48,404 bases of DNA, from assembly GCA_902783785.1 (NCBI GenBank), contig CACZSH010000012.1, positions 1 to 48,404 of the forward strand, given 5' to 3'. Position 1 is the stretch's first letter, and each line of letters begins with the position of its first letter. Positions 3,400 through 46,819 of this stretch are shown here, one piece after another. The translations under genes were made by a program, and so were the position numbers. This DNA comes from an uncultured bacterium. GTDB taxonomy: Bacteria; Cyanobacteriota; Vampirovibrionia; Gastranaerophilales; Gastranaerophilaceae. The notes under the pieces are model-generated. The model made no database searches, was not told the DNA's origin, and worked only from the letters and a program-made list of their open reading frames with translations.

Positions 3400-4593
3400 T
3401 CAATTAAATATTTCGATTGCTCTTTCTAAAATTCCTACGCAATACGATATAACAAGTCCGTAATTAGTTATAGCAATACCTTTTTTATTTGCTATTAAAA
3501 TTCTTGATAAAATTTCACGTCGGTTTGTCATACATGCACCACAATGTATGATTAACTTATATTTATCAATTTCAGGAAAATTATGTCCTGTAAAATATTC
3601 AAAATTAAGATTATAGCCTAATTTTTTTTGTAACAATTTCGGAAGTTTAACCCTTGCAATATCATCTTCTATACTATGATGAGTACAGCTTTCAAGGATT
3701 AAAACTCTATCGTTTTCCTTTAAATTTTTAATAGCTTCTATTCCTTTTACAAAAGCATTTAAATCGCCCTTTAATCTTGCAAAAAGAATAGAAAAAGATG
3801 TTAGAGGAATATCCTTTGGTACAATTTCATCAACTGTTTTAAAAGCTTGAGAATCTGTTATAACCAATTTTGGTTTTACTTTTAAATTTTCCAATGCATC
3901 TTGTAATTCTGACTCTTTGACAACAACTGTAATACAAAATTCATCAAGACATTCTCTCAAGGTTTGAACTTGAGGGAGAATTAATCTTCCTTTCGGGGCT
4001 TCTTTATCAATTGGAGTTACAAGAATTACAAAATCTTTAGGTTCAACTAAATCAGATAAAATTTTAGGTGAATTTACAAAATCATCAGGTAAAATTTTTA
4101 ACAAACAGGTGTTAAATTTCTCTGTTAAATCATTATCATAAAGTGCAGAAGTTTCTAAAATATTTTCGGTATATTTTTTTATATCATTTAACTTTTCTTC
4201 AGAAATTTTATTTTCATCTGACTTATTAATTACAATAAAATACGGAATAGAAAATTCATTAAATTTATCAATTAATGATTTTTCAATATCACTTATTCCG
4301 TTATAATCCAAAACAATAATTGAGATATCACATCTGTTTATTGCCGATAAAGTTTTTTCGATACGTTTTTTACCAAGAGTCGTTTCATCATCCAGTCCTG
4401 CTGTATCTAAAAAATTTACAGGCCCTATCGGAAAAAGTTCCATTGATTTTTCAACTACGTCAGTTGTTGTTCCTTTTTGTTCAGAGACAATTGAAACACT
4501 TTGAGCAGTTATAGCATTGAGTAAAGAAGATTTGCCGCTGTTTGTTTTTCCAAAAATACCAATGTGAAGACGTAGAGATTTTAAGCTTTTCAT
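3400..4593 (-). CDS. hydF: [FeFe]-hydrogenase maturation GTPase HydF
   Basis: HydF is the scaffold GTPase on which the 2Fe subcluster of [FeFe] hydrogenase is assembled before transfer to the apo-enzyme; its partners are the radical-SAM enzymes HydE and HydG. The N-terminal TrmE-type GTPase domain has the P-loop GKTNSGKSS, DTAG and a NKSD specificity motif. The C-terminal cluster-binding domain has SCTHH and HCGACM, the three-cysteine pattern that defines HydF. Its length of 397 is normal. No hydE, hydG or hydrogenase gene is in the window, so it stands alone here between tRNA-Ala and a convergent gene. AAGG precedes the ATG, which lies 16 bases beyond a strong hairpin ending the tRNA transcript. 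Confidence 0.95.
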   Translation of the reverse strand: MKSLKSLRLHIGIFGKTNSGKSSLLNAITAQSVSIVSEQKGTTTDVVEKSMELFPIGPVNFLDTAGLDDETTLGKKRIEKTLSAINRCDISIIVLDYNGISDIEKSLIDKFNEFSIPYFIVINKSDENKISEEKLNDIKKYTENILETSALYDNDLTEKFNTCLLKILPDDFVNSPKILSDLVEPKDFVILVTPIDKEAPKGRLILPQVQTLRECLDEFCITVVVKESELQDALENLKVKPKLVITDSQAFKTVDEIVPKDIPLTSFSILFARLKGDLNAFVKGIEAIKNLKENDRVLILESCTHHSIEDDIARVKLPKLLQKKLGYNLNFEYFTGHNFPEIDKYKLIIHCGACMTNRREILSRILIANKKGIAITNYGLVISYCVGILERAIEIFN

Positions 4594-6086: not shown

Positions 6087-6112
6087 AAAAGACACTTTTG
6101 AAAGTGTCTTTT
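6087..6112 (+). terminator. Intrinsic terminator
   Basis: The stem AAAAGACACTTT/AAAGTGTCTTTT has a 2-base centre and ends in TTTT. It lies 31 bases after the stop at 6056 and separates the two small genes, so the second needs its own promoter. Confidence 0.85.
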
Positions 6113-6181
6113 CTGTTGTTTGATAATATTTTCTATTTTAAGTTGTATATTAAGATTTGTAACAGAAATAGTCTAACCCCC

Positions 6182-6209
6182 TAAAGTTTACATGGTTTTG
6201 TGCCGATAA
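6182..6209 (+). promoter_or_regulatory. Sigma-28 (FliA/SigD)-like promoter
   Basis: TAAAGTTT (6182-6189) and GCCGATAA (6202-6209) match both E. coli FliA consensus boxes at every base. The spacer is 12 bases against the usual 11. It is intergenic and ends 38 bases before the ATG at 6248. An ordinary sigma-70 pair is not apparent at this place. Known FliA/SigD regulons contain flagellin, chemotaxis and autolysin genes. Confidence 0.65.
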
Positions 6210-6216
6210 GTAATAT

Positions 6217-6246
6217 GTAAGGGATAACAAAACAGGTAAGGGATAA
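6217..6246 (+). repeat. Direct repeat GTAAGGGATAA in the 5' leader
   Basis: Two exact 11-base copies (6217-6227 and 6236-6246) lie 19 bases apart, start to start, in the predicted leader. The second copy contains the AAGGG ribosome-binding site of the gene at 6248. The first could be a decoy site, a regulator site or a small duplication. Confidence 0.7.
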
Positions 6247-6247
6247 G

Positions 6248-6655
6248 ATGACTTATAACGTTGGTTTACAATCTCATAAGGACTTAGATGTTAAAGCATT
6301 AAAAACTATCACTAATGATATTTTTGATAATGCTTCAGCTCAAACTTATACTCCTGCTGTTAAAGTTAGAACTGTTACAGGTATTGATTTATATAGCGGC
6401 AAAGTTGATTCTAATACAGCAAGACATATCGCTATTTCTAATTCAGGTTTACAAGTTCAAATCAATAATGATTTAGCTGCAAAGTTACAATTTTTAAATG
6501 CAAAAGCTGCAGCTAATACTTTGCAAGAAACTTCTACTGCGATTGCAGGTGTTGCAAGTCAAGTTATTGAAGAGCTAAAAAGTGAAAATCCTTTCTCAAA
6601 TAAATTCTCAGCTACTAATAAGAAAACAGGTTATTTATTTATTAAAGCTGCATAA
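6248..6655 (+). CDS. Small protein, 135 aa, under a sigma-28-like promoter
   Basis: Family unknown. There is no signal peptide or membrane segment. It is rich in Ala, Asn, Ser and Thr with likely helices (NDLAAKLQFLNAKAAANTLQ) and ends in a NPFSNKFSATNK motif. It shares two short motifs with the 147-aa protein upstream. The start at 6248 is supported by AAGGGAT 6 bases upstream. The promoter type, polar composition and lack of a Sec signal would fit a substrate of the flagellar or a similar export apparatus, or an anti-sigma or chaperone protein. That is inference only. It is followed by two hairpins. Confidence 0.75.
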   Translation: MTYNVGLQSHKDLDVKALKTITNDIFDNASAQTYTPAVKVRTVTGIDLYSGKVDSNTARHIAISNSGLQVQINNDLAAKLQFLNAKAAANTLQETSTAIAGVASQVIEELKSENPFSNKFSATNKKTGYLFIKAA

Positions 6656-43687: not shown

Positions 43688-46600
43688 TCATTCTTCTTTT
43701 TGATTAAAGATTCTGTCTAAGCAAGCTTGTGGCGAATAGAACCATTCTCTTGACGTTATTCTGTCTACTTTAAATCCTGAACGTTCGAGTATAGATTGCT
43801 TTTTCATATTAGAAATATGAGATTTTTTATTGTCTTCAACTCCGTCTATTTCTATGATTAAATTATTTCCAATCAATAAATCTGACGATAATCCTGCAAT
43901 TTCTGCTCCTGCTTTTACAGAATATCCTCTTTCTCTTATTTTTTCTGCAATTTCTTTTTCTAAAGGATTTTTATATAAATTTTCGTCAATTTCGTTGTTC
44001 ATTACCGCATTAAAGTGGTCATTGTATTCTCTAATGTACTCGAGATAACTTCTAAATAGACCTTCAGGTAAGTCGTTTATATCTTTTGATACAAAATTAA
44101 TAACTTTATATTTTGCACGAGTAATGGCAACATTAAATAAATTAGGCTTTTGCAAGAAAGTTAAACTTTGAGGATGACTGTCATTGGCATAAGCCCACGA
44201 CATTAGTATAATGTCTCTTTCATCACCTTGAAATGCGTGAGCTGTACCAATTTCAACTTCATGCTTTTGCATCATTCTTTCTGAAATAACTTTTCTTACT
44301 GATATTTTTAATTGGTCAACCTGAGCTCTAAATGGTGAAATTATACCTATTGTTACAGGTTTTTCTGGATTTTTTCTTTCGTCTTCCAAAATTATTTCAT
44401 GAACTTTTCTTACAACAGCTTCTATTTCTGGTGTATTTCTTGTTATGTTGCATTCTGGATCCATTTTTCCGTCAGGAACATTTACTATTTCCAAAACTTT
44501 TTCTGTTGATGAATTTTGATGCATAACTTTTATTCTGTCAGCATAAAATTCGTGGTTAGAAAAATTAATAATTGGTGGTAAACTTCTAAAATGTTCATCT
44601 AATAAAACAGGTGAATTACAATAGAAATTTGCAATATCGAACATTGAATTTGAACGATATTTCCACATTAACTGATATCTGTCAGGAATACCGTATTGAC
44701 TTAAAAATGACTGTTCTTTTGCTTTTTCTAAAAACGAAAGATGCGGTAATTGCTTATCATCACCTACAATTACAGCACGTTTTGCTCTGAATAGTATAGG
44801 AAAGCAGCTTGCTATATCGCATTGTGATGCTTCGTCTATTATTGCTACATCAAATAGTGCTGGTTTCATTGGTAGAGAACTTGAAACGGCATATGTTGTT
44901 ACACACCAACAAGGGAAAGCTTCTAAAAGCGGTCTGAAATCTTCTGTTTCAAGTATTCTGTTTTGAAGATTTTGTTGTCTTGATACAAGTGACTTTGCAT
45001 GTGTTAAAAGTCGTCCTCTTTTTTGGCTGTCATTTCTTAATCCTTTTAATGACTCAACTCTTATTGATTTTAATACATTTGTTACAAGTGAATGTTGTTT
45101 TGATTTTAGGTTATGTATTTCATTTATTAAAAGATGAAGATTTCCAATTTTTTGAATTTCTGTTTCATAGAGTTTTAGTCGTCTTTCTATTTTTGCGTAA
45201 GCAAGTTCATCTTTTAATCTTGAAATATTTAATTCCGAATCTTCGAAATCTTTCAAATTCAAAACTTTTTTAATTTTTTCTTTAGCGGAATAATTTTGAA
45301 GATTTACAATAAATCCGCTTTTATCAAAATTATTTTCTATAGTTTTTATAGCGCTGTTTAAATCTTCAACATCTTGTTTTTTTAGTATTTCTTTTATATA
45401 TTGTCTTTCTCCGAGAATTAATTCTTGGCTCTTTCTTTCTATTTCAGCTTTTTGCCATTCTCCTTCAAAACCGATTATTTTTTCGCAGTTATCTTCCAAA
45501 GATTTGATGTCATTAAGCAATTTTTTTATATCATCAACTTCGCTGAAAATAATGTCTTCTAGATTTTCATTCAAATCAAATTTTCCCGCTGCTAAGTCTT
45601 CGAGTTGATATTTTAATTTGCGTTGATAATCAAGTCTTCCTGCTCTTAATGCCAAAAATGGAGCGCCAAGATTATTTAATCTGTCAGCAACAACATCAAC
45701 TGCTTTATCCATTTTTGAAGCTACAAGAACTGTTTTACCTTCTGCAATTAAGTGTGCTACAAGATTTACTATTGTTTGAGATTTACCTGTGCCGGGAGGT
45801 CCAAAAACAGATACAATTTTATTTAATTCTATTTGTCTTATAACATTTTCCTGAGAATCGCTTAAAGAAAGTGGTGTAAGTGGCAAAAAATTTTCTATAT
45901 CATCCGGTTTTGGAATTTCTAATTGTTTACCTTTACTTTGCAGATATTCTTCATTTATAACATTTAATGCTGTTTCTCGATATATTCCGCTTGGTCTTTC
46001 TGCAATTTGGGTTAATTCGTGAAGAACTCCTGCTGTTGTGGTTGGACGTTTTGTCAAAATTATTGCACTTTGTCTGGTTAAACATATTTTATCTAATTTA
46101 ACTTGTGCCTTTTGAGATTTTTCTTCTTCATCTTCTATAAAATCATCTATATTATCTGCATCTATTGTATCTTTTTCTTTATAAAAATCTTTTTCCTTAG
46201 ATACATTGTCATCCTCTGTTAATTCCGGATTTAGTGATACATCAACATCTGGAATAATTGATTTTAATGTGGTTAAAAATATATCAAGCTTTTCTTGTGT
46301 AATTGGTGCAGACGGTACGGCATCAAGTAAAAATTTTAAAACTTGTTCCACTTCATCATCGTCATCAGCTTTCTTCATTAGCGCTGTGATTGCACCTGTA
46401 TTTAGTGAAATCATTTCTTCTGTTAAAAATAAATTTATATTTACTCCGTTTTTTTCTAATCGGCAAGGTGTGTAAAGTAATGGAGTTAAAAATTCATTAC
46501 TGCGTTTTTTTGATGATTTACCCACTAAAAATAAATATCCGTAAATTAAGTATTTATCTTTTTGTTCAGATGAGCTTTGAAGTAGTAATTCTGTTACTTT

Positions 46601-46819
46601 TGAATCATAAGCTGAAAGTTTCAAATATTCTAAATTCTTTGTGTAAAGTGTTTCTTCATCTTTTAAAAATATCCATTTGTTGGCTTTATCAGCTTTTAAA
46701 TTTCTGAATGTTGAACTCTTAACTTCTTCTCTAACACAATCGTGTAAATATTGACTTAATTTTTTTATAAAACTGTTATTAAATGCTGAATTAAGTGCTT
46801 TTGTCGCTTCTTGTAACAT
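43688..46819 (-). CDS. Superfamily 1 helicase fused to a PD-(D/E)XK-like nuclease
   Basis: 1043 residues. A regulatory N-terminal region (about 1-330) is followed by the Upf1/Dna2-type SF1 core: Walker A GPPGTGKSQTIVNLV (near 337-350), Walker B IIDEASQCD (near 660), GDDKQLPHLSFL, RSLPPIINFSN, IGTAHAFQGDERDI and NVAITRAKYKV (near 895). A long coiled-coil-prone insert lies between motifs Ia and II. The last about 90 residues (NPLEKEIAEKIRERGYSV ... SSDLLIGNNLIIEIDG ... GFKVDRITSREWF) have the Asp-x(n)-Glu-x-Asp layout of Vsr/DUF559-like PD-(D/E)XK nucleases. Such fusions occur in DNA repair and in phage-defence genes; this one stands alone. AGAGGG precedes the ATG. Confidence 0.85.
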   Translation of the reverse strand: MLQEATKALNSAFNNSFIKKLSQYLHDCVREEVKSSTFRNLKADKANKWIFLKDEETLYTKNLEYLKLSAYDSKVTELLLQSSSEQKDKYLIYGYLFLVGKSSKKRSNEFLTPLLYTPCRLEKNGVNINLFLTEEMISLNTGAITALMKKADDDDEVEQVLKFLLDAVPSAPITQEKLDIFLTTLKSIIPDVDVSLNPELTEDDNVSKEKDFYKEKDTIDADNIDDFIEDEEEKSQKAQVKLDKICLTRQSAIILTKRPTTTAGVLHELTQIAERPSGIYRETALNVINEEYLQSKGKQLEIPKPDDIENFLPLTPLSLSDSQENVIRQIELNKIVSVFGPPGTGKSQTIVNLVAHLIAEGKTVLVASKMDKAVDVVADRLNNLGAPFLALRAGRLDYQRKLKYQLEDLAAGKFDLNENLEDIIFSEVDDIKKLLNDIKSLEDNCEKIIGFEGEWQKAEIERKSQELILGERQYIKEILKKQDVEDLNSAIKTIENNFDKSGFIVNLQNYSAKEKIKKVLNLKDFEDSELNISRLKDELAYAKIERRLKLYETEIQKIGNLHLLINEIHNLKSKQHSLVTNVLKSIRVESLKGLRNDSQKRGRLLTHAKSLVSRQQNLQNRILETEDFRPLLEAFPCWCVTTYAVSSSLPMKPALFDVAIIDEASQCDIASCFPILFRAKRAVIVGDDKQLPHLSFLEKAKEQSFLSQYGIPDRYQLMWKYRSNSMFDIANFYCNSPVLLDEHFRSLPPIINFSNHEFYADRIKVMHQNSSTEKVLEIVNVPDGKMDPECNITRNTPEIEAVVRKVHEIILEDERKNPEKPVTIGIISPFRAQVDQLKISVRKVISERMMQKHEVEIGTAHAFQGDERDIILMSWAYANDSHPQSLTFLQKPNLFNVAITRAKYKVINFVSKDINDLPEGLFRSYLEYIREYNDHFNAVMNNEIDENLYKNPLEKEIAEKIRERGYSVKAGAEIAGLSSDLLIGNNLIIEIDGVEDNKKSHISNMKKQSILERSGFKVDRITSREWFYSPQACLDRIFNQKEE

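Follow-up and report, generated by a model that had tools for sequence, protein, structure and literature searches.

The stretch of DNA considered here, hereafter the window, comprises the 48,404 nucleotides (nt) of contig CACZSH010000012.1 (GenBank assembly GCA_902783785.1) from an uncultured member of the Gastranaerophilaceae, and it carries a small gene for a protein of 135 amino acids (aa), preceded by a promoter of the type read by FliA, the sigma-28 factor. As the preliminary description had it, the pair TAAAGTTT-N12-GCCGATAA at 6182-6209 agrees with the FliA consensus at 16/16 positions (the consensus being the version quoted in that description, with spacers of 11-12 nt accepted), and 38 nt separate the end of the second box at 6209 from the ATG at 6248. 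This is its single occurrence in the whole window, and 100 shuffles gave no match. The product of a congener (G001) is 87% identical, the differences fall 11/5/30 by codon position and the ratio of nonsynonymous to synonymous substitution (dN/dS) is about 0.19; on this pattern the open reading frame (ORF) at 6248-6655 is a real gene under purifying selection. Pfam and NCBIfam gave the window protein no match at E<=1, and none of 52 family members matched any known family convincingly at that threshold, in agreement with the earlier placing of the gene outside known families.

Upstream of the orthologues in the window's own taxonomic family, the core TAAAG-N14/15-GCCGA (with [GA]CCGA allowed) is exact in 19 of 21 genomes and one mismatch away in the other two. 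A search for related loci, with a closer subset of the 20-member alignment as the query because the full alignment was too divergent, provided 80 further named orthologue loci, mostly titled Candidatus Gastranaerophilales or Melainabacteria. Here 54 loci have the exact core, 78 have it with at most one mismatch and a single locus has lost it; the -10 core GCCGA is exact in 54/80, with nearly all the remaining ones showing a single mismatch, and random stretches drawn from these loci yielded exact cores in 0/7166 cases. Six other families of the order (f2-f7) supplied 17 homologues, of which ten have the exact core, five have one mismatch and two have two. The preliminary description had made its promoter depend on conservation of the box upstream of orthologues, and the box is indeed kept across the order. 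Its view of the 12-nt spacer as unusual has to be given up, since N12 is found in 72 of 79 conserved boxes of the named relatives and is therefore no oddity. Judged by this conservation and its controls, the FliA-type box before the window gene is not due to chance, and the case for a genuine, conserved FliA promoter at 6182-6209 is a strong one as predictions go; the gene would then be transcribed by FliA.

Table 1. Features at and around the small gene (positions in the window)
Feature	Position	Strand	Remarks
Upstream paralogue, 147 aa	5613..6056	+	Resembles the window family over the N-terminal ~45 residues
Terminator-like hairpin, weak, downstream of the preceding gene	6087..6112	+	11 pairs, T-rich tail
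Conserved upstream element TTAAGATTTGTAACA	6150..6164	+	17 nt ahead of the -35 box; TTAAGnnnTGTWACA-like sequence in many named orthologues
Predicted sigma-28 (FliA)-type promoter, -35 box TAAAGTTT	6182..6189	+	Exact consensus; TAAAG core in 21/21 family and 79/80 named orthologues
-10 box GCCGATAA	6202..6209	+	Exact consensus; core [GA]CCGA in 19/21 family orthologues
Leader with perfect 10-bp direct repeat TAAGGGATAA	6210..6247	+	Copies at 6218-6227 and 6237-6246
Small gene, 135 aa	6248..6655	+	Homologues across the order; proposed FliA-controlled exported substrate

A sigma-28 gene, without which the preliminary description would have abandoned its reading, is present in the source genome (G000; 1.78 Mb in 122 contigs), and flagellar and export genes were likewise found outside the window. 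The FliA/WhiG sigma factor scores 228.8 bits against a cut-off of 189.6 (TIGR02479) and 211.3 against 201 for the FliA family NF005413, and FliA is found in 28/28 genomes searched. The window ORFs scanned include no flagellar gene, as had been claimed, the FlhF-like scores being due to Ffh and far under the cut-off. The FHIPEP proteins (FlhA/SctV family) come in two full-length kinds, a flagellar-type kind A, which in the source genome exceeds the FlhA equivalog cut-off, and a divergent kind B, which stays below both cut-offs (702 against 772 bits for FlhA, 587 against 692 for SctV) and so does not qualify as the injectisome (SctV) type. With flagellin as the marker of the filament, so that "filament-less" stands for a genome without detectable flagellin, the same 14 of the 28 genomes have both flagellin and kind A, and none of the 14 with apparatus B alone has flagellin, kind B being present in all 28; FliP repeats the split over 23 genomes. 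In these 28 genomes, as judged by the FHIPEP genes, the flagellin-less apparatus is thus present wherever FliA is.

The genes around kind B point to a flagellum-like export apparatus. The cluster holds FliE, FliF with a flagellar C-domain, a 290-340-aa protein, FliH and FHIPEP; in one genome (G013) the run adds FlgB-like and FlgC-like proteins, two rod proteins of the FlgE/F/G type and a FliI-type ATPase, while in another (G007) FliP, FliQ, FliR and a FliN-like protein are grouped together at a separate place. Rod-type proteins are retained in the flagellin-less genomes, and apparatus B possesses the rod and MS-ring proteins expected of a bacterial flagellum (FlgB, FlgC, FliE and FliF). The distance from fliA to the apparatus B rod genes is about 4-7 kb in G007 and G021. 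Repeated pilin-like genes (KKHFGFTLAEVLITLGIIGVVAA) were also seen on either side of the rod-gene cluster near fliA in G007 (L291:7125-7877 and L291:10452-11207). The source genome further encodes a soluble 491-aa protein (C73, L086:7044-8519), possibly a docking partner, that resembles the cytoplasmic half of FHIPEP in its C-terminal part, and most relatives have comparable partial matches.

Other genes carry the box as well, a point that the preliminary description had proposed to check. The core gave 23 matches in the source genome against one for a reversed-pattern control; not every one of these is a promoter, because a few lie within ORFs and some belong to repeats at the ends of contigs. 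Since a loose box pattern contrasted little with its control in many relatives, a tighter pattern was adopted, and this gave 152 matches against 12 control matches summed over 23 genomes (85 against 8 in 14 flagellin-less genomes and 67 against 4 in nine flagellated ones). Tight boxes number between one and about a dozen in each flagellin-less genome, and in the genome G003 the sole tight match is the promoter of the window-gene orthologue. The box-bearing set in flagellin-less genomes includes the window family, an SQAR-type family, calpain-like proteins, a LysM-amidase and an HD-domain gene. Members of the SQAR-type family start with MG(M/L)AASQARxLxLTAR and share a conserved C-terminal segment, with a middle of very different length; in the source genome a boxed member adjoins the kind-B fliE in divergent orientation. 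Five calpain-type proteins stand behind FliA boxes, two of them over the Pfam cut-off and three just below. Another FliA-boxed gene (L184:380-2098) encodes a 573-aa protein that weakly resembles a metalloprotease-toxin domain family, scoring below the cut-off. As for flagellins, about 21 genes were checked and an exact box was found before two and a degenerate box before several; both flagellin genes of the source genome were without a box on inspection.

Of 146 genomes of the order, 130 have a homologue of the window protein by profile search, among them 17 of the 22 that belong to other families, and one genome overlooked by a single-sequence search (G019) has a boxed, divergent candidate. 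Most genomes have one copy. Of the 14 flagellin-less genomes examined, 13 retain both gene and box, and among those lineages the proteins are 45-61% identical; several family members exceed the window protein in length by 30-130 residues. The window protein itself has neither cysteine nor tryptophan and its family is nearly free of both, with one cysteine in 12,521 residues where 25 other window proteins have 1.7%, and none in the 3,308 residues of a second, partly overlapping family set. Such a composition, poor in cysteine and tryptophan, polar, and helical or disordered, fits a trait of type III substrates and is suggestive only.

The sequences support the presence of FliA, the box and its conservation, the set of genes that carry it and the flagellin-less apparatus. 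The reading preferred here, with a little better than even confidence, is that the site is a genuine FliA promoter and that the 135-aa product belongs to the late-class substrates of a type III export apparatus. A second flagellum-related apparatus, with divergent FlhA, FliPQR, FliE, FliF, FliH, FliI and rod proteins, would be built first; FliA, which in some relatives is encoded near the rod genes of this apparatus, would then turn active and transcribe the window gene and the genes of other small or variable proteins. The products, poor in cysteine and tryptophan and helical or disordered, would pass through the export gate and work outside the cytoplasm, as a structural or accessory component or as an effector. 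Export of the window protein and of the other box-bearing products is thereby presumed, and apparatus B may be its route. The preliminary description had proposed a protein linked to a flagellum or to an export apparatus. Its second half fits, because the family has almost no cysteine or tryptophan, is one of a wider set with FliA boxes and is present without flagellin; its first half fares less well, for the window gene occurs in flagellin-less genomes that keep FliA and the second FHIPEP apparatus, and is therefore better tied to the latter.

Several observations weigh against late export through apparatus B. Eleven genomes of the window's own family have no homologue detectable by profile search, and the scarcity of cysteine and tryptophan would equally fit other disordered proteins. 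Two AlphaFold2 models, with helices near 15-31, 55-65 and 74-112 followed by a disordered tail, are of low confidence (predicted local distance difference test, pLDDT, 57-58), and a Foldseek search of the PDB with the window model gave no match. In the source genome the window gene adjoins no apparatus gene, and the export partner is ambiguous there, because this genome carries a flagellum as well as apparatus B, making the flagellar gate another possible route.

The strongest rival, unlikely as it is judged to be, sees in the product a counterpart of FlgM, the anti-sigma-28 factor otherwise missing here; placed under its target's promoter, it would restrain FliA up to completion of the apparatus and then be exported. 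FlgM is itself a FliA-controlled, exported protein, and the window gene is the most widely box-conserved gene found, its product being small, helical or disordered, free of cysteine and mostly single-copy. No other FlgM candidate was recognised, a 103-aa gene beside fliA having no convincing family. FlgM was, however, not among the matches listed for the 52 family members at E<=1 (the best 25 of 30 families, all weak), and the longer members of the family also argue against such a role. A cytosolic chaperone or assembly regulator, co-expressed with the exported proteins, is less likely again; it would account for the co-occurrence with the box-bearing set and for the long predicted helix at 74-112, but strong avoidance of cysteine and tryptophan is, to our knowledge, no known trait of chaperones, and type III secretion chaperone families gave no match.

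Classically FliA serves flagella and the source genome is flagellated, so an ordinary late flagellar gene, surviving as a relic in flagellin-less genomes, has to be weighed too. It is given only a slim chance: a relic would have to account for the 13 of 14 flagellin-less genomes that keep both gene and box, and for the identity that their proteins still share, and the exact box is missing from most of the flagellin genes checked. Hardly credible is the suggestion that the box is coincidental and that a sigma-70 promoter drives the gene. A sigma-70-like match (9/12) at 6187-6216 does overlap the FliA site, but such matches occur in the region at chance frequency, and both FliA boxes and their spacing are conserved across the order.

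A broader and more tentative proposal, put at somewhat less than an even chance, concerns the order as a whole. The Gastranaerophilales would possess a dedicated rod-bearing, flagellin-less secretion organelle under sigma-28, exporting lineage-specific, surface or effector-like proteins in the gut, with the window gene as the most conserved member of the regulon and maybe a structural or checkpoint component.

Around the promoter, the TTAAGATTTGTAACA-type element matches the window at its one listed position only. A TAAGGAAA...AAAGGGAT leader before the ATG is found again in orthologues, the window version being TAAGGGATAA twice, and its second copy overlaps the ribosome-binding site. Control of this AGGGA-rich leader by CsrA was considered as a general explanation and set aside, because the 7 genomes out of 23 with CsrA are all flagellated, and flagellin-less relatives preserve the leader motif well. 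The terminator reported just upstream is there as a weak hairpin with a T-tail. The preceding paralogue matches the family profile at positions 1-45 (E=5.2e-4) and has no FliA box of its own, the best candidate showing four mismatches. At L193 and other flagellin-less loci the orthologue is flanked by a conserved divergent gene of 150-170 aa, and the same loci have a conserved convergent neighbour starting MVDNRSAGFFGIGG; in the source genome a relative of this last gene adjoins the soluble FHIPEP-like gene. Elsewhere in the window, 3403-4593 (-) encodes a high-scoring HydF, the [FeFe]-hydrogenase maturase, in line with fermentative gut life, and 43688-46819 (-) a large helicase-like protein with partial similarity, far under the cut-offs, to the anti-phage helicases ProA, Hhe and PLuB.

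Incomplete flagellar gene sets were already noted in 2014 in most Gastranaerophilales genomes then available and were read as meaning no functional flagellum (PMC4040986), while a member of the order from termites is probably motile (PMC5877343). The present analysis suggests that the partial sets are a separate, order-wide apparatus with sigma-28 and probably exported proteins, some of them calpain-like. If true, common and poorly understood gut bacteria own an unrecognised secretion organelle, a natural conversion from flagellum to secretion that retains the rod and the flagellar sigma switch, and the FliA box offers a direct means of listing its candidate substrates. No description of this apparatus or its regulon turned up in the papers searched, which is not proof of absence.

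Compared with the FliA class 3 promoters of Escherichia coli and Salmonella, both octamers are identical and the sigma factor is over the cut-off of the FliA/WhiG family, but the spacer here is usually 12 rather than 11 nt and the box precedes uncharacterised, non-flagellar genes, largely not flagellins. Another parallel is Campylobacter jejuni, in which Barrero-Tobon and Hendrixson in 2012 reportedly linked non-motility sigma-28 genes, those of the Fed proteins (flagellar coexpressed determinants), to colonization. The export route of the Fed proteins is the flagellum, whereas half of the genomes considered here are without flagellin.

Chlamydia trachomatis likewise keeps sigma-28 without flagella, beside type III parts of flagellar descent, and its sigma-28 regulon consists of two genes, hctB and tsp (PMC10597470), as against the one to about twelve tight boxes found here in a flagellin-less genome. 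Buchnera, a host-associated symbiont, retains flagellar basal body and export genes (PMC8109811); in the Gastranaerophilales, by contrast, the apparatus is accompanied by sigma-28 promoters and, in half of the genomes, by a second, flagellar export gate. The Myxococcales-type non-flagellar type III secretion system is also a type III apparatus without flagellin, but it is without FlgB, FlgC and FliE (PMC3459982), whereas apparatus B has proteins of all three types.
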